The notes under the pieces are model-generated. The model did not search any database, was not told the DNA's origin, and saw nothing but the letters and a program-made list of their open reading frames with translations. A DNA stretch of 28,416 bases from IMG/VR virus record IMGVR_UViG_3300021511_000197, positions 1 through 28,416 of that record, one strand, 5' to 3'. The translations under genes and the position numbers were made by a program. The DNA is from a virus. The stretch's first letter is position 1. Every line of letters begins with the position of its first letter. Shown in pieces: positions 3,727 through 28,416 of the stretch.

Positions 3727-6063
3727 CTACTCCCCCGTCTCCACGTGTGCTTCGTCAAATGTCACGCTCTGGCCATCGCCGTTGACCAGTCGTTCGGCGA
3801 ACCAGAGCTTGTCCAACACCGTCACGCCCAGGAAGTCGAACTTGACCGCGCCCATGGTCTCGGCGTCGCCCATCTCCAGGCCGCACACGCGGGCCTTGGT
3901 CTTGGCGTCGTAGGCCAGGGGGAGCAGGTCGGCGATGGGCACGTCGGCGATGACGATGCCGCCGGCGTGCCGGGACTGCGACTTCTTGGTCCCCTCGATC
4001 CGCATGGCCTGATCGAACAGGGGCTTGTACCACTCGTATGCCCGGCCCACTTGGTTCACGTGCTCGACGGCCCAGCGCAGGATGCCGTAGTTGTCCTCGC
4101 CGGTCTCTTCGCGCATTTGCCGCAGGTCATCGACGATCATGGCCTCGTCCGGGATGTGCCGGGTGATGTCGTTGCACACGTCGAAGGGGTGCTCGGCAAT
4201 GTTGTTGGGGTCCTTCCCCTCCTTGACCGCCTTGACCTTCATCAGGTGCCTAACGGTGTCAGGCTGGGCGCGGAACACCTCCTTCAGGGCGGCCTTGCCC
4301 TGCAAGCGGCCGAAGGTGATCATCTGGGCCACGTGGTCTTCGCCCCACCGGCGCTTGAGGTACTCGATCACCTCGCCGCGGAAGACGACGCCGACGTCCA
4401 CGTCGATGTCCGGCAGACTCACGTGCCCCTCGACAGTCTGGAACAATCTGTCGGCATCGAGTTCATCCGTGAGACTCAGGGCATAGGCCAGGTGCGAGTT
4501 GTGCGGGTTTGGATGGTCCTGAACCGGACCGTCTTCCGGAAGCTGATCCGAGAGATAACACCACGTTCTCGGGTTGTGGTCATCGATCCACTTGGCTTCC
4601 TGCCGGAGTAACGAACAGCTGGGCATCCGTTTGAGCCGTTTGGCCCACCGGCCGAGTCGGCGCCGCGCCGCGGATGGGTCGCACTCGTGCAGGTTCTCGA
4701 AATTCTCCCCGTACCAGGACATGAAGTCCCTGGCCCCGGCGTTGAAATGCGGCGGGATGTTCCTTGATGCGTTGTAGAACCGCTCGAAGACCAGCCCGTA
4801 TTCGATCGGATCGACGTCGGTGATCCCCAGCACGTAGTTGACCAGGCTGCCGGCGCCGGAACCCCGCCCTTTTCCCCGCGGACCGTTGCGGCTGTCCACG
4901 TAGTTGCAGGCGTCCCAGACGATGAGGAAGTAGTCCGCCAGTTTCGCCTCGGCGATGACGCGCAGCTCGCGCTCGATCCGCGCCCAGTAGACCTTCTTCT
5001 GTTTCGGCGAGAGGTGAGCGAGCTTCCGGGCCGCCCCTTCCCGGCACAGCCGGGCGAGGTACTCGTCGGACGTGCATCCGGCCTGCTCGGTGGTCTCGTT
5101 CGAGAACCGCGGCAGGCACGGCTTGCGACCGATCTCCGGCGACCGGACCATGTCGGCGATTTCGAGCGTGGCTTCGATCTCGGCGTCGGTGTATTGGGCC
5201 CGCATCTCGTCGAGGTCGTAAATGTGGAACGTGTCCAGGTGGAAAAACGCCATGGTGTCGCCGCCGCGCATCTTGAGGCGCTCCTGCGCCTCCGCCGTAG
5301 TGTGCATCTGGGAGTAGAGCAGCAGCCGTTGGTCTTCCGCGTCGCCTTTACAGGCGTAGTGGGCGTCGAGCGTGGCCACCGAGCGCAGGTTCATCCCCCT
5401 GGCCACATCGCGCAGACAATCGACCACCACCTGCTGGACGGCCATGCCCTCGTTCTGAAGCTCGATCCAGAAGTTCTCGGGGCCGAACACCTTCTGGTGC
5501 TGCTCGACAATCTCCGCGGCCCGGTCCTTCCAGTCGTCCCGCAGCAGCGTCCGAACCCGCTTGGGATCTTCGGTGCGCGTGCTGATCCGGCAGGCCTCGT
5601 CCAGGTCCACGAACAGCCCGCTGGACAGCCGGCCCGCCAGGCAGCCGGACAGGCAGATCAGGTTGCCGCCCGCGGCGAACTCGGCGAGCCCGGCCAGGTT
5701 GATCCGGGGTTTGCGGTAGAAGAAGTCAGGCCGGTTCGTCTCACTGACCAGCTTCATCAGGGCCTTGAACCCCGCCTCGTTCCTGGCCAGCACGGTCAGA
5801 TGGAATCGCTTGTTGTTGGCGGCGGTCTTGATGCTGGGGTCGTCGAGGCAGACGTATAACTCGATTCCTGGGAGCGGCTTGATGCCTGCCTTCCGGGCCG
5901 CCTTGACGAAGGCCACGATGCCGAAGATCGAACCATGATCGGTCAGAGCGATGGCCGGCGCGCCGATCTCCTGGGCGCGCTGGACGATGCGCTGCGGGCT
6001 GGGCAGTCCATCGAGTAGTGAGTAGTGGCTGTGAACGTGCAGTGGAGCGTAAGTCGGGTTCAT
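3727..6063 (-). CDS. dnaE: DNA polymerase III alpha-like protein, PHP plus palm only (half-length)
   Basis: 778 residues; bacterial DnaE is usually about 1,100-1,200. The N-terminal PHP domain keeps a full metal-ligand set: HVHSHYSLLDG (9-19), TDHGS (41-45), GIELY (66-70), H88, ELQNEG (201-206) and DAHY (233-236). Palm motifs are present: GRGSGAGSLVNYVLGI (399-414), LVFERFYNASR (424-434), the two catalytic aspartates in PDIDVDV (551-557) and the third in KFDFLGV (741-747). The protein ends 35 residues after that aspartate, so fingers, clamp-binding and OB regions are absent, and the next gene is a glycosyltransferase. Residues about 435-548 form an insertion between two motifs that are adjacent in E. 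coli DnaE. Start ATG 6063 overlaps the upstream stop as ATGA. Either a partner subunit lies elsewhere or the protein has a changed role. Confidence 0.9.
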   Translation of the reverse strand: MNPTYAPLHVHSHYSLLDGLPSPQRIVQRAQEIGAPAIALTDHGSIFGIVAFVKAARKAGIKPLPGIELYVCLDDPSIKTAANNKRFHLTVLARNEAGFKALMKLVSETNRPDFFYRKPRINLAGLAEFAAGGNLICLSGCLAGRLSSGLFVDLDEACRISTRTEDPKRVRTLLRDDWKDRAAEIVEQHQKVFGPENFWIELQNEGMAVQQVVVDCLRDVARGMNLRSVATLDAHYACKGDAEDQRLLLYSQMHTTAEAQERLKMRGGDTMAFFHLDTFHIYDLDEMRAQYTDAEIEATLEIADMVRSPEIGRKPCLPRFSNETTEQAGCTSDEYLARLCREGAARKLAHLSPKQKKVYWARIERELRVIAEAKLADYFLIVWDACNYVDSRNGPRGKGRGSGAGSLVNYVLGITDVDPIEYGLVFERFYNASRNIPPHFNAGARDFMSWYGENFENLHECDPSAARRRLGRWAKRLKRMPSCSLLRQEAKWIDDHNPRTWCYLSDQLPEDGPVQDHPNPHNSHLAYALSLTDELDADRLFQTVEGHVSLPDIDVDVGVVFRGEVIEYLKRRWGEDHVAQMITFGRLQGKAALKEVFRAQPDTVRHLMKVKAVKEGKDPNNIAEHPFDVCNDITRHIPDEAMIVDDLRQMREETGEDNYGILRWAVEHVNQVGRAYEWYKPLFDQAMRIEGTKKSQSRHAGGIVIADVPIADLLPLAYDAKTKARVCGLEMGDAETMGAVKFDFLGVTVLDKLWFAERLVNGDGQSVTFDEAHVETGE

Positions 6064-7475: not shown

Positions 7476-8106
7476 CGCCTTGGTCTCCCGTTGATGCTTC
7501 GGCTAGGGCTCTCTCCACTTGCCAGCCACGACGAATGCGCTGGCTGGTACATCCGGCAAACAGGCCCAGTGTCCTGTCCCACTGTGCCATACACTGAGTG
7601 CGTCCGTTATGGGAAAGCAAACGGTTGCGGCGCGTATTGCGGTTGTTCTCTGCGCGGGTGACCCACCGACAGTTTCTGGGTTCATAGCTCTTGTCGTTAT
7701 CGATGCGATCAATTTCATGCCCCGGCGGTGGTTCGCCCATGTCCTTGAGAAAGTTTCTGAATTCCCTCCATCGTTCACACACTGTGATGCCGCGACCGCC
7801 GTAGTAACGATAATCCTTGTTCTTGTGGTTGGTGCATCGCTGGATCATATGAGTCCAGCTCTCGTATGCCGGTGAAGCTTTGCCGCCGCGTTTGTGGCCG
7901 TGGATTGTCGCCTTGGCGACGGATATGTCTCGCCTCAGGCACCCACAACTCCTAGTGTTGCCGCTTTTCAGGTTACGACTGTCGACGGCGGTTTCCCGCC
8001 CGCAATCACAGCGGCAAAGCCACTTAGCGCGCCCCTGTACGTTGCAGCCGTACCTCTCGATCACGACGAGACGGCCGAATCGCTCCCCCCCCAGATCAAC
8101 GATCAT
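7465..8106 (-). CDS. free-standing phage-type HNH endonuclease
   Basis: 213 residues from ATG 8106, which has GGAGGGG upstream; the open frame reaches 8166 but that extension lies inside the dNMP kinase gene. A zinc knuckle module comes first (WLCRCDCGRE then TRSCGC, about 28-57). The HNH core follows: YYGGRGITVCERW, then HEIDRIDNDKSYEPRNCRW. A C-terminal DNA-contact region has the SQRIRRGWQVERAL helix typical of this family. It overlaps both neighbours by about 11 nt, as expected for a homing-type gene that has settled into an operon without disrupting it. Function (nicking or cutting at an intronless or allelic site) is known for relatives only. Confidence 0.85.
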   Translation of the reverse strand: MIVDLGGERFGRLVVIERYGCNVQGRAKWLCRCDCGRETAVDSRNLKSGNTRSCGCLRRDISVAKATIHGHKRGGKASPAYESWTHMIQRCTNHKNKDYRYYGGRGITVCERWREFRNFLKDMGEPPPGHEIDRIDNDKSYEPRNCRWVTRAENNRNTRRNRLLSHNGRTQCMAQWDRTLGLFAGCTSQRIRRGWQVERALAEASTGDQGDVL

Positions 8107-8892: not shown

Positions 8893-10026
8893 CTACCGTG
8901 CCAACTGCCTGCTGCGAGACGCACCGTTGATAGTGGGAGCGAGGTGCTTGCGGATGTCCTGAGGAAGCATCTCGCCGATGTCGTGCTTGTGGGTCGGTGC
9001 CACAAAGAATAGTCGGAAGTAGTATTGGAGTTGTTCTTCGAGGGTCGCCCTCGCCTTTTGCCCGGCCTCGTCGTTGTCCAGGGTGAACACCAGGGTCAGC
9101 GCCCCGGCCCGCTGGAGCATCTTCCTTTGAGACGCCGACAGGCTCACGCCGAACATGGCCACCGCGTTGCGGATGCCCGCCTCCTCGTAGGCCCAGACGT
9201 CACCCGGCCCTTCGCAGACAATCGCGACGCCGGTCTTGAAAATGAACGGCCTGGCGAACCAGAGGTTGTACAGGCAGCGCTCCGCCCGGAACCCCTGGGA
9301 GTGACGCCACTTCCGGTACCAGCCCGCCCGCTCCCTGGGCGGACAAGCCATCTTGGTGGCGTGATAGAGACCACACCGCTCGCACTTCTCGTGGACCGAC
9401 CTCGCCGAGTAGCCGACCACGTACCGACCTGATTCGTCGAGCACCGGGAAGAACGCCCGGTCTGAGAATGGCTTGTCGGGCCGGTCGCAATACGAGACGT
9501 GGTAACGGGCAATGATGCGTTGGGAGACGCCTCTACGGGGGTAATACACCGTATCCGGTGTCAGGTTGGGCAATACCTCCGCCAGCGGAACCCCGACCCG
9601 ACCATGGTGCTCGACCTTCCTCTGCCGGTGCCGCCTGAGAACCCGCTCGATCTCCAGATCCTGCACGCTGTAGCTGCCGCCCTTGGCCTGCCCCAGGTTC
9701 AACGCCACCACGACGAAGTCAATGGCCTGCTGGAAGCTGCATGCCCGGCCGTTCTTGTGGGCCAGCACGCCGCGCACCAGGCCGAAGATGCTGCTCGACG
9801 GGCCGGTGACCGGGTCGCGCTGGCACTGCCGGGTCATGCACCGCCAGTGCACGGTCCGCATGGCCCAGTACCATGCCCGCGGGTTGTCGCCCTCGTGGAC
9901 GGGACAGGGGCCGTGGATGTAATCGTGTCGTTCGTCGTACTCCACGCCGAGCGCGTCCAGCACCTCGGTGATCCGCTCCGTAGCGCGGTCCTGGATGAAG
10001 CGAATCTCGCGCTCGTCGTAGGCCAT
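8893..10026 (-). CDS. dnaG: DnaG-type DNA primase
   Basis: 377 residues from ATG 10026, which overlaps the helicase stop as TGATG. The zinc-binding N-domain shows CPVH (41-44) and C63/C68. A second cysteine cluster, CERC (215-218) plus C228, lies in the middle and is not part of the standard DnaG scheme. The TOPRIM domain is clear: AIVCEGPGD (268-276, E272), then VFTLDNDEAG (313-322). It lacks the long DnaB-binding C-terminal domain of cellular DnaG, in line with phage primases. It lays RNA primers on the lagging strand and is directly coupled to the DnaB-like helicase gene. The frame extends upstream to 10272 but that part lies in the helicase gene. Confidence 0.88.
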   Translation of the reverse strand: MAYDEREIRFIQDRATERITEVLDALGVEYDERHDYIHGPCPVHEGDNPRAWYWAMRTVHWRCMTRQCQRDPVTGPSSSIFGLVRGVLAHKNGRACSFQQAIDFVVVALNLGQAKGGSYSVQDLEIERVLRRHRQRKVEHHGRVGVPLAEVLPNLTPDTVYYPRRGVSQRIIARYHVSYCDRPDKPFSDRAFFPVLDESGRYVVGYSARSVHEKCERCGLYHATKMACPPRERAGWYRKWRHSQGFRAERCLYNLWFARPFIFKTGVAIVCEGPGDVWAYEEAGIRNAVAMFGVSLSASQRKMLQRAGALTLVFTLDNDEAGQKARATLEEQLQYYFRLFFVAPTHKHDIGEMLPQDIRKHLAPTINGASRSRQLAR

Positions 10027-12734
10027 CAGTCCGGCTCCTCGATTGGCGTGTTGTCGGTAGCGCTGTTGGCCAACTCCTGCGACCACGTCTTTCCCTCGAC
10101 GAAGCGGGCGCACTTCAGTTGACTCTTGACGTTGATGTAGTCGGTCGGCTCCATGGCCGGGCCGTATCGCGTGTCGGTGACCACCAGCTTGTGGGTACCG
10201 TGGGCCGGCGGGTCCTCGGCAAGCTCCTCCTTCAGCTTGCGCTTCAAAATGGTAAAACTGGAGCAGAGCCACAGGATGCGGTCGGACCCGGCGATGACCT
10301 GCCCGCCCTCCTTCTCGACGCCGTCGCGGTTGAGCTGCACGGTGGCCAGGATCGGCAGCCCCCAGCGCAGGGCCCAGTTGTGCAACTCCGTGAGCAGGAA
10401 TCCCAGGATTTGGAATTCGGAGATGTTCCCTTTGAGATCATCCGCGTTCATGAGCTTGATGTAGTCATAGATCAGCAGGCAAGGTTTGGCCTGTCCCGCG
10501 TCGTCCAGGCCCACGTTCCTCATCAGCCATCTCCGGGCCAGCGACAGAACGCACCGGAGTGACTGGCCAGCGATGGAGCAGTAGGTAATCGGCAGGCTCT
10601 CGATCGGCTCCCTCACGGACAACACCGCTTCCCGTTCCTCCGGCACGCTGCCGAACTGCCCGGTCTCGATCCGATTCAGTTCGACGTTGCTGGCCAACGC
10701 CGCGAGCCGGTTCATCTGGGTTTGGCGGTTGAGTTCCGTATCCAGCAAGAGCACGGGAATATCCGTCTTCGCGGCGTGGTAAGCCACATTAAGACAGAAC
10801 ATGCTGTTGTGGCTGATGACCCCATTAGTAATGAAGCTGTGCCCGTCCGGGACATAGAAATCACAAGTCCACGCCTTGCTCCAGGACAAATGCTTTACTG
10901 GCTCGAAGAGCAGGTGAGGATCGATAAGAGACTGAATGTGCCGGTATTCAGGAAGACCACGATACTCGGGAAATTCGTTGAGCAGCTTTTCGACTGTACA
11001 TCGCAGCGCCCTCTTGGCACCGCGGATCCAAGAGTTACTCGAAACCCGCAGGTTCACGTTTCCGCGCAAGAAGTACCCCCGACGTTGCAAGACCGCCGTT
11101 TTCAGTTTTCGCAAAGGCTCAGCCAGGTGGGGGACGACGCCGCCGCTCCTCGCAACGACGGGGCGGTTGCAGAATTCCTCCAGGGCCTTACGCTTTCGTG
11201 CGATGCGGAATCCGATCAGGTCGCGGAATACCCTTGCAGATTCGATACCCTGTATCGAAGTCGCCCAGTAAGGACGGGTGCAATCCCATTGTGGCAAAGC
11301 GTCATGCAACGTGTAGGTGACGGTCATGATGCCTAGGTTGCGCAACAACGCTCGCAATTGAATCGACAGCATCTCGGAATTGGTGTAGGCGGTGATGCCG
11401 TTGCGCCCCACAGTCCCATCGGCGTCAAAGTACCCTGAGAGCGCCTGGCACACCGCGCGCTCGTTCGCCATGCGAATTTGCTTCGGGAAGATTTTGAAGC
11501 GCTGCTCTGTATAAAAGCCGAGTTCAGCTACGCCTTTCGCAACTCTGCTAAGGTTGCACCTAAGATACCGCGGATTGTCTGAGCCCATGGTCCCGCCTCG
11601 CCGCTGGATAAAAGCTCTGAACAAGTCGCGGCACTCGTCATCGCAGCTCGACATCTCGACCATGCGGTTGCTTATGCTACCATCCCCAACCAGCAGGCCA
11701 ATGATGTACGCATCGTCTGGATCAACGTCTCGATCACCCCAGTAACGGTCGCCGCAACGATGCACCAAGTAATCACCGACTCGAAGATCACCGGCATTTC
11801 TCCACGCAATACACCCGTTCGGAGCCAGCACGCGGACGGGGTGGTCGGGAGTGACCGACAACCGTGTGCCCTGCTTGGTTTCAATGTCTACGACCTCAGA
11901 AAGACCGTTGTTCCACCAGTGCGAGGCGCGCCGGGATTGGCCGTGCTGGTCCAACAATTCAAGGTCGCTGCACGTCACTTTCTGATTCGCCTTGGCGTCG
12001 AACATCTCGTAAGGCATGAGCACCCCACGATTTGTGAGTATTGCGGTACGAAATGAACTTGTGCATTTGCCTCGCTTGGGGCGCGATCCGACCAGGTTGA
12101 CCGTCCCGCGCCGCTGCCCGCCGCCGATGGCCTTGTCCCAATTCGGGAAACACGTTGGAAGACCGACCACGTCCACGGGGTGCGTCATCTGGGTCTGCAT
12201 CTGCTTGGCGAAGTCAAGGCCCAGAGGCACGAGCGTCTCGTTCGTGGAAGTTAGTTTCGACGTGAAGTCAAAGATGGGGTTCTCGACCAGGCCCAGGATG
12301 TCGGTAATCTTCTCCTCCCCAGTCATCTGTCCCAGCGATTTCTGGATCGCCAGGGTGGTGTAGTACGCCGCGCGGGCCATGCTCAGCTTGAAGACGACCG
12401 TGGCCAACGACCGGGCATTGTCCAGGCTGACGTGCTCGGCGAAGAGGCTGCCGAGATACTCCTGTTCCCTGGCCCGTCCCGCGAAGTCCTCCATTCCCTG
12501 GGCCTTGGCCCCGGCGAGGATGGTCGGTTCGTCGAACGTCCGGGCATCGCGTTCATGCACCAGGTGTCTCAGTATGTTGAAGATTCTCTGGTTGACCGGC
12601 CAGTAGAAGTCTTTGGCCCCCACGATTTCTTCGATCTCCATGAAGCCATCGGCCCCATGGCGGAGGATGGCGGCCAGCACCGCCCGCTCGGCGCCGCCGT
12701 CCTGACACTTCGCGTTGGCCTTGGGTCTGCCCAC
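10026..12734 (-). CDS. dnaB: replicative DnaB-type helicase interrupted by an intein
   Basis: 902 codons from GTG 12734, which overlaps the upstream stop as TAGTG and has a GAGAGAG tract in front. After removal of the 420-residue intein the host protein is 482 residues, normal for DnaB. The N-domain (about 1-130) starts with AERAVLAAIL. The RecA-like domain has the P-loop GSRPKRGK joined to SMFCLN after splicing, LLLDTE, Walker B LLIYDYIKLM and the C-terminal block of a DnaB ATPase (LATVQLNRDG; the usual arginine-finger region near SDRILWLCSS). It is a hexameric 5'-3' helicase at the fork that works with the primase encoded next. The longer frame to 12830 is inside the upstream gene. Activity depends on splicing, because the intein splits the P-loop. 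Confidence 0.92.
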   Translation of the reverse strand: MGRPKANAKCQDGGAERAVLAAILRHGADGFMEIEEIVGAKDFYWPVNQRIFNILRHLVHERDARTFDEPTILAGAKAQGMEDFAGRAREQEYLGSLFAEHVSLDNARSLATVVFKLSMARAAYYTTLAIQKSLGQMTGEEKITDILGLVENPIFDFTSKLTSTNETLVPLGLDFAKQMQTQMTHPVDVVGLPTCFPNWDKAIGGGQRRGTVNLVGSRPKRGKCTSSFRTAILTNRGVLMPYEMFDAKANQKVTCSDLELLDQHGQSRRASHWWNNGLSEVVDIETKQGTRLSVTPDHPVRVLAPNGCIAWRNAGDLRVGDYLVHRCGDRYWGDRDVDPDDAYIIGLLVGDGSISNRMVEMSSCDDECRDLFRAFIQRRGGTMGSDNPRYLRCNLSRVAKGVAELGFYTEQRFKIFPKQIRMANERAVCQALSGYFDADGTVGRNGITAYTNSEMLSIQLRALLRNLGIMTVTYTLHDALPQWDCTRPYWATSIQGIESARVFRDLIGFRIARKRKALEEFCNRPVVARSGGVVPHLAEPLRKLKTAVLQRRGYFLRGNVNLRVSSNSWIRGAKRALRCTVEKLLNEFPEYRGLPEYRHIQSLIDPHLLFEPVKHLSWSKAWTCDFYVPDGHSFITNGVISHNSMFCLNVAYHAAKTDIPVLLLDTELNRQTQMNRLAALASNVELNRIETGQFGSVPEEREAVLSVREPIESLPITYCSIAGQSLRCVLSLARRWLMRNVGLDDAGQAKPCLLIYDYIKLMNADDLKGNISEFQILGFLLTELHNWALRWGLPILATVQLNRDGVEKEGGQVIAGSDRILWLCSSFTILKRKLKEELAEDPPAHGTHKLVVTDTRYGPAMEPTDYINVKSQLKCARFVEGKTWSQELANSATDNTPIEEPD
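10806..12065 (-). other. intein with LAGLIDADG homing endonuclease, inside the DnaB P-loop
   Basis: Residues 224-643 of the 902-residue precursor. It begins with Cys after PKRGK and ends with His-Asn before Ser (VISHN then SMF). Block A is the start CTSSFRTAILTNRG. Block B is RLSVTPDHPVRV with the TxxH motif. The two endonuclease motifs are IIGLLVGDG and LSGYFDADG. Block F is DFYVPDGHSFITNG. All splice-critical residues (Cys1, block B T and H, penultimate His, terminal Asn, +1 Ser) are present, so splicing is predicted to work. About 190 residues separate the second endonuclease motif from block F, longer than usual, and may hold a DNA-recognition domain. Confidence 0.95.
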
Positions 12735-13312
12735 TACGCTCTCTCTCGGGATGCCCCCGCCAGACACCTGGAACACTGCTGGCCGACGTCCTTCGGGGTC
12801 CGCACCGGGACCTCGAACTCCTGCTCGCACTGGGTGCAGACCTGCTTATGGACCTTGGGCTTGCCGCGATGCCGCTTCCGCGTCCGGCGCGCTCGGGTCC
12901 GGTTCTTGGCGATGCGTTGCGATGGCGGATCGCCCTCGGCAGTGACGAATTCCTGCGTATTGCCGTAGATGGTCTGCTTGCCGCTCTCGCCGGCCGCGGC
13001 CACCGCCTCGACACGGTTCTCTTCGTCCCCGTCCTCGTCGTCGGGTTCGTCGTCAGGTTCGGTGCCGGGGCGGGGCCCTTGCCCTTCCTGTTGCTCGCCG
13101 GGCACCTCGGCCGTCGCTTCCGGCTCCGGCCGCGCCGGCGTGAGTTGCAGTTCCTCGGCCAGTTCCGCGACCAGTTGGTGTACGCGACTTCTTGTTGCCA
13201 GGGGCGTGTCGGGTACGGGCAGAGCCTCGCCGGTCAGTTCGGCGTACCCCTCCACCACGATGCTCCAGTCACCAGCGCTGATTCCAGCCTTGAGCTTCTC
13301 CAACGCACTCAT
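12734..13312 (-). CDS. unknown protein with acidic linker and C-terminal zinc ribbon
   Basis: 192 residues from ATG 13312 with GGAGAGAG upstream. Residues 1-55 are helical (MSALEKLKAGISAGDW). Residues 56-100 are rich in Pro, Glu, Asp and Gly and probably disordered, with a run of acidic residues at 86-98. Residues 132-155 are strongly basic (RTRARRTRKRHRGKPKVHK). A zinc ribbon closes the chain (CTQC 159-162, CSRC 180-183). It precedes dnaB with a one-base overlap. The basic stretch plus ribbon suggests DNA or single-strand binding, and the location would suit a helicase loader or cofactor, but no known loader family is recognised. Confidence 0.6.
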   Translation of the reverse strand: MSALEKLKAGISAGDWSIVVEGYAELTGEALPVPDTPLATRSRVHQLVAELAEELQLTPARPEPEATAEVPGEQQEGQGPRPGTEPDDEPDDEDGDEENRVEAVAAAGESGKQTIYGNTQEFVTAEGDPPSQRIAKNRTRARRTRKRHRGKPKVHKQVCTQCEQEFEVPVRTPKDVGQQCSRCLAGASRERA

Positions 13313-21822: not shown

Positions 21823-22455
21823 TGAGCTTCTCCCTCGGCGGCCTCGCCGCCTGCGCCTGCTATGATCCCGACGTAGTGGGTGGATGTGGTAGAATCCGTT
21901 ACACTCAGTTTTATGACTTGGCCGGTTGCGGCTTGTCTGATATCAATGGCCCGTCAGGAGGTTATACACCTGAGTTCAGGTTATGGTCGGTCCATTTTCG
22001 AAGTTGGGTACTTTTTTCTGAATCCCGTCACCGCTTGATCCCGGATGGAGACAGTCCATGCCTCGATCCCTCTGTGAGGGTTGTACGGATTCTCGGCCAC
22101 GCCCGTCGCCGATTGTCGGGGCCCAACAGGCCGTCAGGGGGTTATACGCCAGAGTTTAGGGATTGGTCGGCCTGCGCACTAAGGCGGGGCATCTTCGCGG
22201 GACACCGCCAGTTTGGAGATGATCAAGAGACGTGCGATCAGGGGCGACGTGCGGCTTCCCCCCGTGCTCAGCAACCACAAGATCCATTGGACTCGCCGAG
22301 TGGCTCATGGAGTGCGGTTCTGACGGCCCCGTCTTTGAGGATATGGGTGCGACCCGCCCAGGGATGCGCAGATGCTTGAGCAAGCCATTCAGCGCACTTC
22401 CAAATGCTGGTGTTTGGTTGGCCAAAGAAGTCCTCCCATCGTTCGAGGCGACTGC
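21823..22455. repeat. gene-poor block with two decayed copies of the sigma-tail/66-aa-gene junction
   Basis: No convincing gene fills these 633 bases. Copy C (about 21935-22095) has a TAA at 21983-21981 preceded by codons for RDQAVTGFRKKYPTSKMDRP, close to the tail of the sigma-like protein at 28138. Exactly 26 bases further on, ACG replaces the ATG that starts the 66-aa genes elsewhere. Copy D (about 22115-22173) repeats the junction with more decay and sits about 178 bp away in direct orientation. Bases 22174-22455 show no recognisable feature. Confidence 0.7.
21981..22088 (-). pseudogene. decayed 3' end of a sigma-region-4-like gene (copy C)
   Basis: The frame reads (…)RPYNPHRGIEAWTVSIRD and then QAVTGFRKKYPTSKMDRP to a TAA. 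The last 20 residues align without gaps to RDRAVARVRKTYPTLMMDRP of the gene at 28138 (13 identical). Upstream it diverges and no start is visible, so it is a fragment. The next codons in the same order would be the 66-aa gene, but its start is ACG and a stop follows three codons later. Confidence 0.6.
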
Positions 22456-22902
22456 TCAGCCATCAACACCGGTGTCGTCTGCGGATTCGCCGTCCGGCTC
22501 CCACAATCGATCCTCCATCGGCTCTTGTCTGCGGGGAAACTGGATGTTCTGTATCGGTTCCGCTTCGATCTGTTCGAGTTCTTCTTCAAGAGAGTTCTGT
22601 CTCGGGGGATCCCAGTAAGAGGAGATGGTTTCATAGGATTGCCGCGTCACTTTTCGTATCGTCGCGTGACTGACCTCCAGGCCAGCCCCTTCCAAGAGCT
22701 TGATGGCCAAGCGCACTTTCTCCCTCGCGGCGCGCGACTGGTGCTGCCCATAAACTCCAAATCCCTCGCGGGCGGATCCCCGGCCAGAGCTCCGCCGCTT
22801 GGTATAGAACCCGTTCAAGATAGCTTCTGTCTTGGCTTCAGCGCGAGGGAGCCATATTTGGCGCACTTCTTCGATGGACATACCACGCCGCACTCGCGTC
22901 AT
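22456..22902 (-). CDS. helix-turn-helix DNA-binding protein
   Basis: 148 residues from ATG 22902, with AGGAGG eight bases upstream (the best ribosome site in this block). A helix-turn-helix lies at about 61-97 (EKVRLAIKLLEGAGLEVSHA then TIRKVTRQSYETISSYWDP). The pattern recalls KfrA-like or transposon/plasmid-associated accessory regulators, but the family is not certain. N-terminal 1-58 is basic and Gly/Ser/Arg-rich, and the C-terminal 100-148 is acidic (SLEEELEQIEAEP). A promoter-like site lies upstream at 23010-23038. It stands alone among repeats, suggesting an independent regulatory unit. Confidence 0.65.
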   Translation of the reverse strand: MTRVRRGMSIEEVRQIWLPRAEAKTEAILNGFYTKRRSSGRGSAREGFGVYGQHQSRAAREKVRLAIKLLEGAGLEVSHATIRKVTRQSYETISSYWDPPRQNSLEEELEQIEAEPIQNIQFPRRQEPMEDRLWEPDGESADDTGVDG

Positions 22903-23198
22903 TGATGGGCCTCCTGTAATAACGGTGGCTGCACGCTGATGATTGGCCCGTCGAACCTTACGAGATGGTTGTGTGCCAAACTCGCTCGCGCTGCGCTACT
23001 CATAACCAGACGCTACGACGCGGCACAACGCCTGTCAATAGTGATGTCGTCCTCGTGGGATCGCTCGGCACGGCGGTCCATCCTCTGGCAATTGAGCCGG
23101 TGCCGAACCGTTGGGCGACGCCGTCCGCTCGATTCCGAATGTTTGTGGGCATCATGCTGTGGCCCCGGGCACAGAAAGCCATAGTCAGTGCAGCGGTA
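22903..23198. other. non-coding stretch of about 296 bases
   Basis: It carries the candidate promoter at 23010-23038. A minus-strand open frame at 23000-23182 has no ribosome site and unremarkable composition, so I do not call it a gene. No RNA gene is recognised. Confidence 0.4.
23010..23038 (-). promoter_or_regulatory. candidate sigma-70 promoter upstream of the HTH gene
   Basis: A perfect TTGACA (23038-23033) is followed by a 17-base spacer and TAGCGT (23015-23010), a weak -10 that matches TATAAT at three of six positions. It points toward the HTH gene at 22902 and leaves a leader of about 100 bases. Confidence 0.35.
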
Positions 23199-23399
23199 TC
23201 ATTTGTGCCGTTTCCAATACTCGATCTGCCGCAGGCGCTCCTGGGCTACCTCCTTCGTCCGGTAGCATCCCAGCTTCCTGCCCGTCTCGGAGTGGACGCA
23301 CCACGGACGATCGGAGCTTTCATCCTTGCGAATAACCGCCTCGACATGTTGCGCCGCCTTCTCGGCGGCATCACGGATTGCTTGATCCCAACGGCCCAT
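23199..23399 (-). CDS. 66-residue protein, paralogue of the gene at 27911
   Basis: 66 residues from ATG 23399: starts MGRWDQAIRDAAEKAAQH and contains RPWCVHSETGRKLGCYRT and AQERLRQIEYWK. The WxVxSxxGKxLGxYxTxExAxxRLRQIE pattern recalls a short motif seen at the ends of several phage proteins (for example near prohead-protease genes), but a function is not established. It is 58/66 identical to the copy at 27911. No good Shine-Dalgarno is present, so translation may depend on the gene in front of it, which here is only a decayed fragment. It is therefore possibly not expressed. Confidence 0.6.
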   Translation of the reverse strand: MGRWDQAIRDAAEKAAQHVEAVIRKDESSDRPWCVHSETGRKLGCYRTKEVAQERLRQIEYWKRHK

Positions 23400-23425
23400 C
23401 AGCCGGTTATACACTTCGGTTCAGG

Positions 23426-23521
23426 TTATGGTCGGTCCATCATCAAGGTCGGGTGCGTTCTCCTGACTCTCGCCACTACCTAGTCCCGGATGGTGACGGT
23501 CTATCCCTCGATCCCTCTGTG
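23426..23521 (-). pseudogene. decayed 3' end of a sigma-region-4-like gene (copy A)
   Basis: In the frame ending at the TAA (23428-23426) the translation is RGIEG-stop-TVTIRD-stop-VVARVRRTHPTLMMDRP. Two in-frame stops interrupt it. The final 16 residues VARVRRTHPTLMMDRP match VARVRKTYPTLMMDRP of the gene at 28138 except at two positions. It aligns with copy C over 31 codons without gaps. The 66-aa gene begins exactly 26 bases downstream, as in copy B. Confidence 0.7.
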
Positions 23522-23731
23522 AGGGTTGTACGGACGCACGCCGGTTTTGGTCAGAAAAAACTCGGGTGGTCAAGAATAGTTGAATCGGGTTTTCACTTGG
23601 CGCGAACTCGACGCAGTATGTCCCGGACGCGCCGATTCCACGTCTGCATCTGAATCGCCGGCCTGAAGGCGCGCCCGACGCGGCTGGCAGCACGTCTTGT
23701 CCAGGATGGCCCGCAGAGCCGTCCTGTGCGG
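23522..23731. other. non-coding stretch with repeat fragment
   Basis: The first 35 bases carry the shared block GAGGGTTGTACGGAC (23521-23535) and TTTTGGTCAG (23545-23554), also found at 17333-17366. The rest, to the stop of the HNH_5 gene, holds no recognised gene or RNA. It is only a little over 200 bases and I see nothing else in it. Confidence 0.4.
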
Positions 23732-24652
23732 CTACGTGCTCAGGCCGAGTGTTTGCAGTTGATGTTCAAAGAAACCGAGCTTACGAGTCTTCCGTCGCCG
23801 AGCATCGCAGATAGCAATGGTTCCTTGACCGACTTCAAGAAGTGGGGCGCTGGCTTCGGACAAGACGATGAACAAACTGTGAAAACCACCGCCGAAGAGC
23901 TGGACACCCACTACGAGTCCAGCCATTTGGATGTTAGCGACCACTGCCAAGTGCTCGTGACTCTCTATCCGTGGCAGGAACGCTGGATGGTCTGGCGGCT
24001 CGAATGCGAAACCTGGTATCTCCAATTCGTGCAGCAGATCACGATCCTCGGCGAAGATCGCCTGCCGACACTTCTCGATGACCGAATCGGATAGGACTGA
24101 TTCGCCAAGGCACTCGTAGGCTGTGGCGAGAGCGATTTTGAGCATTGCTCGGACTAGCAGTCCTGCGTCAACATGCGGTTCAACCCGATACTCTCCGGCG
24201 AGCGACGTTTCCTCCAGAAGCTGCACCAATCTTCCCCGGTCCACCTGTCCGGCCAAGAACTGCTTCAGGATGCGTTCGTCTTGCTCGGGGGAGCAAACGA
24301 CGCTCACGTGAAGACCGTCGTCACTTCGTGAGATCGGGCCGTGAATCTCAACGTTCGTTTCATCAGCGCGAAAGGTGATCGTGGCGCGCTTCCCCGTTGG
24401 CGTGTGCGTGGCCGGTAGTTTCCAGGCGGGTTCCCCGGCACGCGACCGGACTCCATGTACGAGTCGAAGCGCCTGGATGAGCGGACTGTCAACGAGTGGG
24501 CCGTCCAACCTGGTGCCCAACTCGCTATTCGCCTTCTTCGACACACGTATCGAGTAGTCGAGACTTCCACCGATCGCATGGGGGAAGATATGCTCGTCCG
24601 TGAACTCGTCTGCCGGCACCGGTGTACCAAGGTATGGACAATTGCCATTCAT
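23732..24652 (-). CDS. HNH_5-type protein with missing zinc cysteines
   Basis: 306 residues from ATG 24652, which overlaps the upstream stop as ATGA and has GGGAG upstream. The N-terminus NCPYLGTPVPADEFTDEHIF (4-23) then PHAIGGSLDYS and SKKANSELGTRLDGPLVD (38-55) are the diagnostic stretches of the HNH_5 family (PF14279), whose members often carry CxxC zinc pairs there. Here the first pair is CPYL (one cysteine) and the second is KKAN (none), so the usual zinc site looks lost. The catalytic EH (20-21) remains. The long C-terminal part is unrecognised. Role unknown; such proteins often accompany defence or modification loci. Confidence 0.72.
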   Translation of the reverse strand: MNGNCPYLGTPVPADEFTDEHIFPHAIGGSLDYSIRVSKKANSELGTRLDGPLVDSPLIQALRLVHGVRSRAGEPAWKLPATHTPTGKRATITFRADETNVEIHGPISRSDDGLHVSVVCSPEQDERILKQFLAGQVDRGRLVQLLEETSLAGEYRVEPHVDAGLLVRAMLKIALATAYECLGESVLSDSVIEKCRQAIFAEDRDLLHELEIPGFAFEPPDHPAFLPRIESHEHLAVVANIQMAGLVVGVQLFGGGFHSLFIVLSEASAPLLEVGQGTIAICDARRRKTRKLGFFEHQLQTLGLST

Positions 24653-24846
24653 ACAAGAAACTCCCGAATCCGTGCCCTCGCTCCGACCTTGATTCCTTCG
24701 CCCCCCCTTGGTTTTTGGCGCGTGGTCCTCTCCCTACCACACATCTGTACGAGTGGAAGCGCAGCCGCCCGGCGATACGGCGCCCTGTACTGCCATTCTG
24801 CTTGTTCGACTCGTCTGAGAACGTCTTCGAGGATGGCGCCTAACAA
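24649..24846 (-). CDS. 65-residue protein coupled to the SPASM radical SAM gene
   Basis: 65 residues if started at TTG 24846, which has AGGAG five bases upstream and overlaps the radical SAM stop. An earlier TTG at 24876 is in frame but lacks a ribosome site. Helical start LLGAILEDVLRRVEQAEWQY, basic later part (RERTTRQKPRGGEGIKVGAR). Its stop overlaps the HNH_5 start as ATGA. No family recognised. Its place directly behind a peptide-modifying enzyme makes it a candidate partner or second substrate, by position alone. Confidence 0.4.
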   Translation of the reverse strand: MLGAILEDVLRRVEQAEWQYRAPYRRAAALPLVQMCGRERTTRQKPRGGEGIKVGARARIREFLV

Positions 24847-25922
24847 ACCGTCTCCTGTCCAAGGCTTCTGATCCAATCGCGGACTTCTGCGAAGAGACGC
24901 TGGTAGGCAACACAGAACACGTCACGGCGGTACTGATTCCAGCTCCGGGGACATCCAGCGCCACAGATTGCATACCAAACACAGGATTCGCAGGCGCGAC
25001 GGGCCTCTTTGATTGTTCCTCGAAGCCGACGCCGCACTGAGTCAATGTCCTCGTCACTGTGGATATTGCCCAACCGATACTCCGTCCCTGTTCCATAGTC
25101 ATCGCAGAGAAACACGTCTCCGTTGGCCATTACGGCATGGATGTTCCCGCACAGATCCGCATTGAACTTGCATAGACGGGAGGTGCGGCCAACAAGGGAC
25201 CGAATCACATTCTCAAAGAAGTTCAGCCTGAGGCTGCCGGGATCGGATATCCAGAGGTGAAAGAACTTCACCAGGAATCTTCCAAACTCATCTGGCTCAA
25301 CGAGAGGGCGGTGTGATTGCAGGTCCATAGCGGCATTGAAACTGTAACTCTTGACTCCAAGGCCCTTCATGAATACGTAAATATCCGAGGCACGCTGAAG
25401 GGATTCTGGCGTGAGGACGCCGAGTACCCCGTGGCGAATTTGGTGCCGCCGGAGCGCATGGATGGTCTGAAGAACCTGCTCACTTGTTGGGCCACCGTCA
25501 AGACTGCGTCGGTGGAGGTCATGAAGGTCAGGTGTGCCATCGAAGCTGACCGATACCCCGACGTCGTGACGCTTAAGGAGAGACAACAACCCTCGATGAA
25601 CATGATATCCGTTTGTCTGAATCTGGTTGTCAAACCCGACCAGTCCCAGTTCCTGCCGCTCGATCTCGCGTTGAAGGTTGAACGCGCTTTCGTAGAAGCC
25701 GTGGCCGCGCAGGAAGGGTTCCCCACCGTGCCAAGTTACAAGAATGCGAAGCCTCCGATCCTGTGCGCGTTTCCGAGCAGCCGAGACCATCCATTGAAAG
25801 GCCGATTGAAGGTCGATGTCTTCCGGAGGCGCGGGTTTGCGGTTCCTGATGTAGCAGTAGTCACAGGACATGTTACACGCGTTGCCTGCGGGTTTCATGA
25901 GGAACATAGCGTTGTAGGGCAT
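24840..25922 (-). CDS. radical SAM/SPASM peptide-modifying enzyme
   Basis: 360 residues from ATG 25922, with GAGG five bases upstream; the frame continues to 26132 but the upstream part looks non-coding. The radical SAM 4Fe-4S motif is CNMSCDYC (16-23, CxxxCxxC), with GGEPF (66-70). The SPASM domain is complete: C258-x9-G-x4-C273, then CESCVWYAICGAGC (311-324, Cx2Cx5Cx3C) and C337, enough for two auxiliary clusters. It belongs to the anSME/RiPP-maturase group, which modifies Cys, Ser or other side chains in peptides or proteins through a 5'-deoxyadenosyl radical. Shares the locus with a second radical SAM enzyme and a peptide gene. Substrate not known; anSME-like sulfatase maturation is possible, but no sulfatase is encoded here. 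Confidence 0.88.
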   Translation of the reverse strand: MPYNAMFLMKPAGNACNMSCDYCYIRNRKPAPPEDIDLQSAFQWMVSAARKRAQDRRLRILVTWHGGEPFLRGHGFYESAFNLQREIERQELGLVGFDNQIQTNGYHVHRGLLSLLKRHDVGVSVSFDGTPDLHDLHRRSLDGGPTSEQVLQTIHALRRHQIRHGVLGVLTPESLQRASDIYVFMKGLGVKSYSFNAAMDLQSHRPLVEPDEFGRFLVKFFHLWISDPGSLRLNFFENVIRSLVGRTSRLCKFNADLCGNIHAVMANGDVFLCDDYGTGTEYRLGNIHSDEDIDSVRRRLRGTIKEARRACESCVWYAICGAGCPRSWNQYRRDVFCVAYQRLFAEVRDWIRSLGQETVC

Positions 25923-26173
25923 CGAGTCCTCAGGGTGCGGCGAGCGCGTTCTCCGACAGCCAACCGCGGACGTATTATGACCAAGAGGAGGACAACCAAT
26001 CAGTCCAGACGGGGACTGGGAGCACGGCGTCCCACCACATATGGTCGCCTTCCGCTTGGCTGGGGCGTTGACATTAGCTGATGGCCGGGGCGTTGCGCGC
26101 ATTCCTACTCTTCCCATGTGGTCGACTGGCACATAGACTGCGCCACAACCGCGTCAGTCGGACGGCACTCGCG
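25923..26173. other. intergenic stretch between candidate peptide and SPASM enzyme
   Basis: 251 bases. Part is open in the SPASM enzyme's frame (ATG-type start at 26132), but there is no ribosome site and the composition (Pro, Ser, Arg and Cys scattered) is not protein-like. A CATAAT-like -10 is present around 25976 on the minus strand, but without a credible -35. No other gene is supported. Confidence 0.35.
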
Positions 26174-26329
26174 CTAATTCGAGGGCGGGCTTATGTCCGT
26201 GTAATCACCGCAACTGACATCCTGAGGATCCTCTGTCAGAATCCTCTCTAGGAGTCGTCGCTGTGCTGCTTCTTCGGTACGGGCATCGGTTTCTTCAGGA
26301 CACTCAACGGTGGTTTTGCTGTCTTCCAT
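26174..26329 (-). CDS. candidate ribosomally made peptide precursor (51 aa)
   Basis: 51 residues from ATG 26329; GGAGG lies 11 bases upstream, rather far. The N-terminus MEDSKTTVECPEETDARTEE is acidic, followed by a helical stretch AAQRRLLERILTEDP and a short C-terminal part QDVSCGDYTDISPPSN. This layout (charged leader, helix, small Cys/Tyr/Ser/Asp/Pro-containing core) is that of a RiPP precursor; placement between two radical SAM genes is the main support. The first 82 bases overlap the radical SAM gene upstream in another frame, and that overlap coincides with its low-complexity Lys/Pro tail. No homologue is recalled, so this is an inference. Confidence 0.45.
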   Translation of the reverse strand: MEDSKTTVECPEETDARTEEAAQRRLLERILTEDPQDVSCGDYTDISPPSN

Positions 26330-27273
26330 TTCTTCAAGACCTCCATTCGTGACTCGCATGGGAAAAGGTGCCAGAATTGCTTCCAAGAACCCGAACACAG
26401 ACCGCGTTCGGGACAGTCTTGGGCACATGGTGGCAGAACAAGGCCATAGGGTTTATTGCGAAGGCGCTCTCTCTTCACTTGATCGTAATCGAGATTCGTT
26501 GTTTCGGTATTGTCCAAGAGGGGAATCAGACTTCCAGGCCGGCAATCGGGCAGAATGCAGTACGGAATAGAGTTCGAGTACCACGAAAGCTTGTTACTAT
26601 CCAGCCAAGCTACACATTCCTCGATAAAGGGCCTGGATTGAGAAAACGGAACAGCCGCGGTCGGGCAACGGGCCGGGGGGATGAGGTTCTGAATCGAAAA
26701 CCTCCTAATGCCAAGAGAGACGGCAAACTGCGCGATGGGAAGGAGCTTCCTGAAATTCCATGTGTGGATGAGAATCTGGGCTGTGACAGCCCGGAACCCA
26801 ACGGAGAGGCAGGCCTCGACGGCCCGGAGGAGTCGGCGCATACTGCCGACTCTGGCGGTTAGCATGTCGTGTTCGCGATCTGTGTCGGAGTGAAGGGTGA
26901 GGGTCACAGCGCTAAGACCGGCCAAGGAGAGGCTTGCACAGAGATCGCGGTCGAGGCGAGCTCCGTTCGAGAACATATGAATGTCGGCCTGGGATCGGCT
27001 TCTGCAATGCTCGACGAGGGAGACAATGTCGGGGTAGAGGCTGGGCTCGCCACCACCAATTGACACGAAGTTATAGTCGCTAGCTTGGCCGATGAGGAAC
27101 TTGAGCTCGTCCAGCGAGTACCGGGCTTTGCGCTCGGCGTCGTGAAGAAAGCAAGTACGGCAGTTGTTCGAGCAGGAGTAGGATGGGAAAAGGAAAAGCC
27201 GTTTGATGTCGGCTGCCCTTGAGGGCCTAGGCGCAAACGCGATCGGCGGTGACGGATTCGAAACTGATACCAT
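26248..27273 (-). CDS. radical SAM protein, MoaA-like, with C-terminal cysteine cluster
   Basis: 341 residues from ATG 27273 (no clear ribosome site). The radical SAM motif is CSNNCRTC (34-41), with SIGGGEPSLYPD (71-82). Extra cysteines at 203, 239, 244, 283 (CAQDC), 287, 293 and 306 suggest an auxiliary cluster, but they do not fit the SPASM pattern of the neighbour. A radical SAM enzyme is certain; its reaction is not. The last 30 residues are Lys/Pro-rich (KPPLSVLKKPMPVPKK) and overlap the peptide gene. Codon composition here is less GC-rich than in the replication genes, consistent with a separately acquired locus. Confidence 0.85.
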   Translation of the reverse strand: MVSVSNPSPPIAFAPRPSRAADIKRLFLFPSYSCSNNCRTCFLHDAERKARYSLDELKFLIGQASDYNFVSIGGGEPSLYPDIVSLVEHCRSRSQADIHMFSNGARLDRDLCASLSLAGLSAVTLTLHSDTDREHDMLTARVGSMRRLLRAVEACLSVGFRAVTAQILIHTWNFRKLLPIAQFAVSLGIRRFSIQNLIPPARCPTAAVPFSQSRPFIEECVAWLDSNKLSWYSNSIPYCILPDCRPGSLIPLLDNTETTNLDYDQVKRERLRNKPYGLVLPPCAQDCPERGLCSGSWKQFWHLFPCESRMEVLKKWKTAKPPLSVLKKPMPVPKKQHSDDS

Positions 27274-27910
27274 GGAGAAAGCGTATCAGCTAAGCAAACG
27301 CTCGGCAAGCCGTACCGCCCGTTGGCAGCGAGTCCGCAGGTGGGCGGCTAAAGCCCGTAACCGGCGGGGTTTGGGCTTGTTTGGCGGAGGCAGCATATTC
27401 GCACGGCGGTGATCGACCACCTCCGGTATGCTTCCGGCCGAGTTCGGGGCGCCTTTCGACCCGTCAGCGCTGACCGGCCCCAGCGAGCGTGACGCGATCG
27501 TTGCGCCGCGCGGTTCGTGCGGGGCGATGTGTAGCATAGGGAGGGAGACCGAACTGGTCAGATCGGGATCGGCGATCCGGCGGTCTGCTCGCTGCCGGCC
27601 CGCTCTCCGGGGCAACGAGATCCAGGGGGAGAACCAGATCCACGGCGCTTGCGCCGAGGGGACAGAACCACATCCAGCGCTTATGCGCAAGGAGAACCAG
27701 AACCCCCACTACGGCCCAAACCGCCGGAATACCGCGGATTCAAACGGCTGCGAACACCAGTGTCGGCGGCGGCTCGCCGCCGCAGCAACCTTGCCCCAGG
27801 CCTCCGCGCCGATCACGCCGCAGGGGCGGGTCTGGATTCGCCTGACGACCTCGCGGATCAGCAACTCAAACTCGCAACGCCAGTCATCCTTGCCCTGCCG
27901 TGCGGTCGCT
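27274..27910. other. gene-poor stretch of about 637 bases with tandem palindromic units
   Basis: Minus- and plus-strand open frames exist but none has a ribosome site or recognisable domain. At 27609-27708 there is an imperfect tandem repeat of about 33 bases built on GGGGAGAACCAGATCCA, with inverted repeats GGCGCTTGCGCC and GCGCTTATGCGC. No RNA gene is recognised. The stretch separates the radical SAM locus from the duplicated 66-aa gene. Confidence 0.45.
27609..27708. repeat. imperfect tandem repeat with small palindromes
   Basis: Two near-complete units, 27626-27657 and 27658-27690, each start GGGG, contain AGAACCA and ATCCA, and end with an inverted repeat (GGCGC-TT-GCGCC; GCGC-TTAT-GCGC). 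Partial units flank them at 27609-27625 and 27691-27708. The period is 32-33 bases. Seen directly; function unknown, could be a protein-binding array or a repetitive extragenic element. Confidence 0.6.
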
Positions 27911-28111
27911 TCACTTCCGCCGCTTCCAATGCTCGATCTGCCGCAAGCGCTCTTGGGCTGCTTCCTTCGTCCGGTAGCAGCCCAGCTTCTTGCCCGTCTC
28001 GGAGTAGACGCACCACGGACGATCGGAGCTTCCATCCTTGCGAATGACGGCCTCGACGTGTTGGGCCGCCTTCTCGGCGGCATCACGGATTTCTCTGTCC
28101 CAACGGCCCAT
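27911..28111 (-). CDS. 66-residue protein, second copy
   Basis: 66 residues from ATG 28111: MGRWDREIRDAAEKAAQH, then RPWCVYSETGKKLGCYRT and AQERLRQIEHWKRRK. Eight substitutions separate it from the copy at 23199-23399. It starts exactly 26 bases after the TAA of the sigma-like gene, and this spacer contains the direct repeat ATAACC-N13-ATAACC. No strong ribosome site lies close to the ATG (GAGGGG is 13 bases away). Both copies keep an open frame, suggesting a selected function, possibly together with the sigma-like protein. A C-terminal WxVxSxxGKxLG pattern resembles phage structural-protein tails; function unknown. Confidence 0.65.
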   Translation of the reverse strand: MGRWDREIRDAAEKAAQHVEAVIRKDGSSDRPWCVYSETGKKLGCYRTKEAAQERLRQIEHWKRRK

Positions 28112-28137
28112 CAGTCGGTTATGCCCCTCGGTTTAGG

Positions 28138-28416
28138 TTATGGTCGGTCCATCATCAAGGTCGGGTACGTTTTCCTGACTCTCGCTACCGCCCGGTCCCG
28201 GACGGAGAACAGATTGACGTGTGAGCAGCCTATCTCCCGCGACACCTGGCGCACGGACTTCCCCTCGGCCAGGTGACCCCAGAGCAGGGCGCGCTCCTTC
28301 TCGTCGAGCCCGTCCAGGATTTCATGGGCCGTCAGGGCTTCCGCCGGGTCGTCCGACTCGCCCACCGCGAAGTCGGCGAGCCTCTCCTCGTCCATCAACT
28401 CGACGCGATGGTGCCG
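28138..28416 (-). CDS. sigma-factor region 4-like protein, N-terminus off the window
   Basis: The visible 91 codons end in TAA at 28140-28138 and the frame is open to the right edge, so the start is probably beyond it; an ATG at 28395 gives an 85-residue minimum. Sequence features: acidic start, ILDGLDEKERALLWGHLAEG, then the helix-turn-helix KSVRQVSREIGCSHVNLFSV with RDRAVARVRK. This is the pattern of sigma-70 region 4 (-35 recognition). A full sigma factor, an anti-host regulator or a small stand-alone region 4 protein are all possible. Fragments of the same tail occur at 21981 and 23426. Confidence 0.65.
   Translation of the reverse strand, partial: RHHRVELMDEERLADFAVGESDDPAEALTAHEILDGLDEKERALLWGHLAEGKSVRQVSREIGCSHVNLFSVRDRAVARVRKTYPTLMMDRP

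Follow-up and report, generated by a model that had tools for sequence, protein, structure and literature searches.

Radical S-adenosylmethionine (SAM) peptide chemistry has, to our knowledge, been studied almost only in bacteria. In the Hxs system, which comprises the precursor HxsA, the SPASM-domain radical SAM enzyme (rSAM) HxsB, a second rSAM of the HxsC or HxsC4 type and HxsD, one precursor serves both enzymes. Two rSAMs and a small precursor are also found in the sactipeptide loci of thuricin CD (TrnC/TrnD) and ruminococcin C; in the case of thuricin CD TrnC and TrnD form a complex and act together (PMC12093266). Here we analyse a small operon in the IMG/VR virus record IMGVR_UViG_3300021511_000197. 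The whole stretch of 28,416 bases (the window) is a fragment of a phage, and the operon encodes an HxsC-type rSAM (rSAM-A), a candidate precursor peptide of 51 residues and a SPASM-domain rSAM (rSAM-B), followed by two further open reading frames (ORFs). With modest confidence we lean towards regarding this cassette as one for maturation of a ribosomally synthesized and post-translationally modified peptide (RiPP), carried as phage cargo.

A sequence-only reading of the stretch had described five genes running in one direction: an rSAM with a Cys-rich C-terminus, a 51-codon peptide gene, a SPASM rSAM, a 65-codon gene and an HNH_5 gene. All five ORFs exist, on the minus strand between 27273 and 23732 (Table 1); the interval originally assigned to the locus, 24649-27273, takes in the first four and leaves the HNH_5 gene outside. 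The two rSAMs are indeed unlike each other and only one has a SPASM domain, as shown by their motifs and by Pfam and NCBIfam matches, and both lie in one operon with the small peptide ORF. The genes of the operon overlap or nearly touch, with the exception of 251 nucleotides between the stop codon of the peptide and rSAM-B.

rSAM-B matched the Pfam Radical_SAM model with 56.5 bits (cut-off 29.5) and has the cluster motif at residues 16/20/23. The SPASM pattern, defined as CX9-15GX4C ... CX2CX5CX3C ... C, is complete (C251, C258-x9-G-x4-C273, C311-x2-C-x5-C-x3-C324, C337), and the score with the SPASM model TIGR04085 exceeded the cut-off (44.7 against 27 bits). The best NCBIfam family was anaerobic sulfatase maturase (anSME; TIGR03942, sulfatase_rSAM) with 214.5 bits against a cut-off of 349.45. 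DynA, YhhB and GrrM followed with 131-148 bits and FxsB with 98 bits, all under their cut-offs, and HxsB reached 53 bits (cut-off 370). An AlphaFold2 model built on a 29-row alignment had a predicted local distance difference test score (pLDDT) of 88; its best matches in the PDB were anSMEcpe (template modelling (TM) score 0.85) and then ChlB (TM 0.81), a cyclophane synthase according to reference titles in PMC12636437. Extending the N-terminus of rSAM-B to 26102 or 26132 was ruled out, the codon usage of the extension being like that of non-coding frames.

The family score and the fold could also mean that rSAM-B is an orphan anSME activating host sulfatases in infection and that rSAM-A is unrelated cargo. 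Other phage records (L003, L004, L005) do contain an anSME paired with a sulfatase, and Asp274, next to a SPASM cysteine, is kept in rSAM-B. However, the score falls far short of the cut-off and, as the sequence-only reading had it, no sulfatase-signature gene was found in the window, which is a fragment. In a tree with 76 relatives rSAM-B fell, as a deep branch, outside the crown anSME clade, near L105/L113 and L092 (support 84-89). It carries Ile25 where 21 of the 29 aligned rows have tyrosine; Tyr24 and Asp277 of anSMEcpe, the residues corresponding to Ile25 and Asp274, matter for catalysis. Moreover, rSAM-B shares a tightly packed operon with another rSAM. We consider an orphan sulfatase maturase rather improbable.

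L105, L092 and L113 were picked as tree neighbours of rSAM-B, not for their peptides, and none of the three loci has a sulfatase-signature gene nearby. In L105 a 46-residue peptide ORF with an AGGAGG site and the C-terminal sequence YGDWFNCGSWH lies directly upstream of the enzyme. The upstream ORF of L092 encodes 75 residues with seven aromatic-x-Asp/Asn motifs, a number tested against shuffles (P=0.001). No peptide was found upstream of the enzyme in L113. We regard L105:1774-3131 and L092:2608-5846 as candidate cyclophane RiPP loci. Because these anSME-like enzymes without a sulfatase adjoin short aromatic-rich peptides, part of the 'sulfatase maturase' annotation may hide peptide maturases. 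L092 has a second SPASM rSAM downstream of the anSME-like enzyme.

rSAM-A matched Pfam Radical_SAM with 70.9 bits (cut-off 29.5). Its cluster motif is C-x3-C-x2-C at residues 34/38/41, and its Cys-rich C-terminus contains C239, C244, C283, C287 and C293 (C283-x3-C287-x5-C293). The best match in genomes, at L206:3396-4484 (genome G272), is 30% identical over residues 14-305. Upstream of it lies a precursor of the HxsA4 family (62.8 bits, cut-off 55), which has a long tail of His-Xaa-Ser, and a second HxsC4-like rSAM is located between the two. Relatives in genomes G078 and G029 (L209, L210) belong to multi-rSAM clusters, with HxsB- and HxsD-like genes in L210. The layout CxxxCxxC ... P-x-C ... 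C-x2-3-C-x5-C is common to rSAM-A and these three relatives. rSAM-A also has the signature of the wider HxsC-like clade, P-x-C followed by C-x2-3-C-x5-C-x-G, and C239, C287 and C293 are invariant in the alignment. In a maximum-likelihood tree rSAM-A was placed within the 25-row half (support 88/99) that holds HxsC/HxsC4-like enzymes. Its nearest kin, at about 30% identity, are HxsC/HxsC4-like enzymes located beside His-Xaa-Ser or NHLP precursors. The clusters at L209:374-17991 and L210:177-15926 hold as many as ten rSAM genes, together with Hxs-like genes and a prepilin-peptidase-like membrane protein; that of L209 also holds an asparagine-synthase-like gene.

No close relative of rSAM-A, nor of the locus as a whole, was detected in the viral, phage, plasmid or genome collections. 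About 1,640 genome searches with rSAM-A across several phyla, one of them drawn twice, returned nothing above approximately 30% identity over a substantial length, and tblastn found no match in phages or plasmids. Exact-pattern searches with rSAM-A in viral and genome contigs and with rSAM-B in viral contigs gave no relatives, and none was among the 114 matches of a degenerate rSAM-A pattern in viral contigs. The patterns of these contig scans were chosen with alignments that included artificial residue-substituted rows, from which no conclusion was drawn. The DNA of the cassette had no match in plasmids. Membership of the whole proteins among prokaryotic viperins (PADLOC pVip) was rejected, the matches of 21-33 bits covering the shared rSAM core only. 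A single-sequence structure prediction of rSAM-A (pLDDT 45) was not used.

Both enzyme types are found together in other loci. L221:5463-12220 (bacterial genome G624) encodes two HxsC4-like rSAMs, one further SPASM enzyme and a GrrM/OscB enzyme (324 bits, cut-off 310) whose identity to rSAM-B is 26% over 338 columns; a RiPP precursor with an NHLP leader (71 bits, cut-off 50.9) belongs to the same cluster. In the viral contig L061:4274-7116 a peptide ending in GWSHGGWNNSGGGANW (GWSHGGW peptide) accompanies an HxsC-like rSAM (117 bits) and an HxsB-like SPASM rSAM (145 bits); the layout resembles that of the cassette, the peptide is different. Further rSAM genes lie beside the two enzymes in L061. 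Because L221 and L061 combine both enzyme types with a peptide, their pairing on a precursor is a known pattern; the pair studied here is divergent. The family search proposed with the sequence-only reading thus placed relatives of both enzymes next to RiPP precursors; it yielded no peptide homologue and no full-length NCBIfam score above cut-off. The relatives back a RiPP at the level of enzyme families, not at that of the 51-residue peptide.

The ORF of the candidate peptide starts in the last 27 codons of rSAM-A, which it overlaps by 82 nucleotides in another frame. GGAGGT is located 9 nucleotides ahead of the ATG. In shuffles that kept the rSAM-A protein and approximately the dinucleotides of the gap, an ATG ORF of at least 50 residues ending in the gap and preceded by GGAGG at the right spacing arose in 2.5% of cases. 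The coding score of the non-overlapping half was slightly positive, those of the other frames were negative. The peptide contains Cys10 and Cys40, and its sole aromatic residue, Tyr43, stands in the sequence Tyr-Thr-Asp, which would fit an aromatic-x-Asp site like those on which cyclophane maturases act (Aro-Xaa-Asn motifs are discussed in PMC9062424). We regard the ORF as probably a gene.

Several results weigh against the view that the cassette matures a RiPP. Like rSAM-B, rSAM-A stayed under every full-length NCBIfam family cut-off: NirJ2, MoaA and HxsC scored 50-55 bits (HxsC TIGR03977 50.4 against 267.9), and HxsC4 NF038332 scored 39.1 against 500. Both enzymes sit on long branches, that of rSAM-A (1.93) with modest support and an unsure exact neighbour, that of rSAM-B with moderate support. 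Genuine sulfatase maturases are numerous among the close relatives of rSAM-B; a sulfatase-signature gene lies nearby in 12 of the 36 loci checked (23 genome, 10 viral, 3 phage). A single Tyr-Thr-Asp in a peptide of 51 residues does not reach significance (P=0.14), and no homologue of the peptide was found in any collection searched (viral-contig pattern, phage tblastn). A transporter, protease, exporter or RRE/PqqD-like protein was not seen in the fragment; the sequence-only reading had remarked on the first two. Finally, while the 51-codon ORF stands out by its Shine-Dalgarno sequence, it does not by its length, since an ATG ORF of at least 50 residues ending in the gap occurred in 41% of the shuffles.

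This last figure, the overlap with rSAM-A, the missing homologue and the fragmentary window would all be expected if both enzymes were peptide or protein maturases, the 51-residue ORF a chance frame and the true substrate the product of another gene, be it the 65-residue ORF, a host gene or one in the part of the phage that was not sequenced. The strong GGAGGT site, the codon usage of the non-overlapping part and the peptide genes directly upstream of the related SPASM enzymes in L092 and L105 argue for a real gene, and we think a chance frame unlikely, if less so than the orphan sulfatase maturase. These two explanations together hold about one third of the probability.

The status of the cassette as phage cargo was established by comparison with a sister contig, IMGVR 3300021511_000224 (38,395 bp; G001/L008), which is 90-94% identical to the window. 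The two are colinear up to position 22089 and again from 27828 to the window end at 28416. The sister contig has no radical SAM gene; the interval of the cassette is occupied by a gene for a 1007-residue TPR-CHAT protein (L008:3258-6281), TPR-CHAT being a domain pair found in defence systems. Two 300-nucleotide direct repeats, 87% identical, flank the cassette, and the sister phage has a single copy (L008:7388-7702). In GC content the cassette (57.2%) and the CHAT cargo of the sister phage (57.0%) lie below the phage core of the window (63.0%). Since the sister phage is colinear on both sides without the cassette, and since the cassette is flanked by direct repeats and has a lower GC content, it is exchangeable phage cargo, a point that the sequence-only reading had overlooked: it placed the genes near phage-like ones, whereas they lie inside a phage and the whole window is a virus record. 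The exchange would have occurred by homologous recombination between the repeats.

The difference in GC content might also be seen if host DNA had been joined to the phage contig in an assembly chimera. The colinearity of both flanks with an independent contig and the position of the cassette between two copies of a phage repeat make such an artefact highly improbable. In another alternative the enzymes would serve defence against phages, or counter-defence, by acting on nucleotides or RNA as viperins do, with the HNH_5 protein as nuclease partner. An HNH_5 gene in the same operon, a TPR-CHAT protein in the slot of the sister phage and the weak matches of both rSAMs to prokaryotic viperin models agree with it. 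These matches are, however, far weaker than those to peptide maturases, and the SPASM domain, complete in rSAM-B, is missing from viperins. We give this alternative little credence, though somewhat more than the chimera.

Table 1. Features of the cassette and of its flanks, in window coordinates
Feature	Position	Strand	Description
rSAM-A (P0002)	26248..27273	-	341 aa; MoaA/HxsC-type radical SAM enzyme
Candidate precursor peptide MEDSKTTVECPEETDARTEEAAQRRLLERILTEDPQDVSCGDYTDISPPSN	26174..26329	-	51 aa
rSAM-B (P0003)	24840..25922	-	360 aa; SPASM-domain enzyme, anSME-like grade
Doubtful ORF between rSAM-B and HNH_5 gene	24649..24846	-	65 aa, TTG start
HNH_5-domain protein (P0004), last gene of the operon	23732..24652	-	306 aa
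Direct repeat copy A	23188..23487		small gene 23414-23199 and intergenic leader
Direct repeat copy B	27900..28199		small gene 28111-27911 and end of sigma-factor-like gene
Further copy of intergenic repeat	21929..22089		left limit of colinearity with sister phage

The substrate, chemistry, order of steps and role that we infer for the RiPP maturation cassette are as follows. The phage would have gained the small operon at a variable slot that is flanked by repeats. The operon would make a short precursor, with the N-terminal helical part EEAAQRRLLERIL as leader and the end VSCGDYTDISPPSN as core. rSAM-B, the SPASM enzyme, would abstract a hydrogen from the core and close a ring. To judge from its relatives, the most likely product would be a cyclophane of three residues, Tyr43-Thr44-Asp45, where the peptide has its one aromatic-x-Asp/Asn site, and the second choice a thioether between Cys40 and Asp. 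By analogy with TrnC/TrnD, the HxsC-like rSAM-A may add a second modification or assist rSAM-B in a complex. The modified product might have its effect within the host, or else against rival phages or cells, a speculation made for a fragment without an exporter. A wider proposal is that this phage group swaps modules in one slot between repeats, and that one module is a two-radical-SAM peptide-maturation operon, including the HNH_5 protein, whose crosslinked peptide benefits the phage, such as by exclusion of competing phages or by host control; as a whole we hold this proposal to be improbable, about as much so as an orphan sulfatase maturase. If the RiPP interpretation is true, phage cargo consisting of HxsC-like and anSME-like enzymes with a peptide gene would show viral use of peptide crosslinking, and it would offer a small self-contained system for testing the still undefined HxsC-type chemistry on a short substrate.

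The TTG start of the 65-residue ORF overlaps the stop codon of rSAM-B and is preceded by AGGAG, but its coding score is near zero; the ORF proposed by the sequence-only reading exists, but codon usage does not back its status as a gene, and NCBIfam and Pfam searches assigned it to no family. The HNH_5 gene has an ATGA overlap with this ORF upstream, and its product barely exceeded the cut-off of the Pfam HNH_5 model (27.6 against 27.5 bits). With tblastn it had four weak matches in plasmids, annotated as HNH endonuclease, and none in the phage collection. By overlap the gene belongs to the operon; nothing ties it functionally to the cassette.

Phage replication genes fill the first 21.5 kb of the window on the minus strand: PHP/DNA polymerase III alpha, Toprim primase, DnaB helicase, a UvsX/RecA-like recombinase and two exonucleases. 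The DnaB gene (10026-12830, minus strand) contains an intein, in which the splicing domain spans residues 275-675 and a LAGLIDADG domain residues 463-540. The DNA polymerase III alpha gene (3727-6063, minus strand) encodes only 778 residues; a stretch of about 240 residues separates its matches to polymerase profiles, possibly because of an insertion or because the enzyme is shortened. In the variable region beside the cassette a 148-residue protein (22456-22902, minus strand), absent at that place in the sister phage, had no family in NCBIfam or Pfam. Rfam and tRNA searches of the window gave no match.

Intergenic repeats occur at 21929-22089, 23374-23602 and 28087-28212 of the window and at L008:2706-2933, 7592-7702 and 9086-9176. 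The R1 and R2 repeats resemble the leader of a tyrosine recombinase gene fused to the 3' end of a sigma-factor-like gene, with an identical junction in three copies. The sister phage has the full recombinase-sigma-small-gene unit (L008:9236-7388), of which the intergenic repeats resemble short, internally deleted copies. Within L008:7628-12195 it has genes for a sigma-70-like protein, a tyrosine recombinase, a ThyX-like enzyme and a BrxL-like protein. The last of these is unexpected in a phage, BrxL being known as a defence protein.

Compared with described systems, the cassette is like Hxs in combining a SPASM rSAM with an HxsC-type rSAM of smaller size, and the nearest kin of rSAM-A are HxsC/HxsC4-like. 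It differs from Hxs in that rSAM-B is not HxsB, no His-Xaa-Ser repeats or HxsD occur in the window, and rSAM-A has C-x3-C in place of the C-x2-C of HxsC. rSAM-B is like anSME in best family match, best solved fold, SPASM cysteines and the aspartate after the SPASM cysteine; unlike anSME it scores under the cut-off, falls outside the crown clade, has no sulfatase in the window and carries isoleucine for the tyrosine of the C-x3-C-x2-C-[FY]-Y motif. To the cyclophane SPASM maturases (GrrM/OscB, YhhB, FxsB, DynA, ChlB) it is linked by its ChlB-like fold and by a Tyr-Thr-Asp that fits the site, although it scores under their cut-offs and the one site of the peptide is not significant alone. In the sactipeptide pairs of thuricin CD and ruminococcin C the two rSAMs are mutually related and an exporter is part of the set, whereas the two rSAMs of the cassette are unlike each other and the fragment shows no exporter. 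No description of a phage-borne two-rSAM cassette was found in the literature that was searched. The enzyme types are already known from bacteria; what is new is that the pairing, while like that of Hxs, has an anSME-like partner and lies on a phage.

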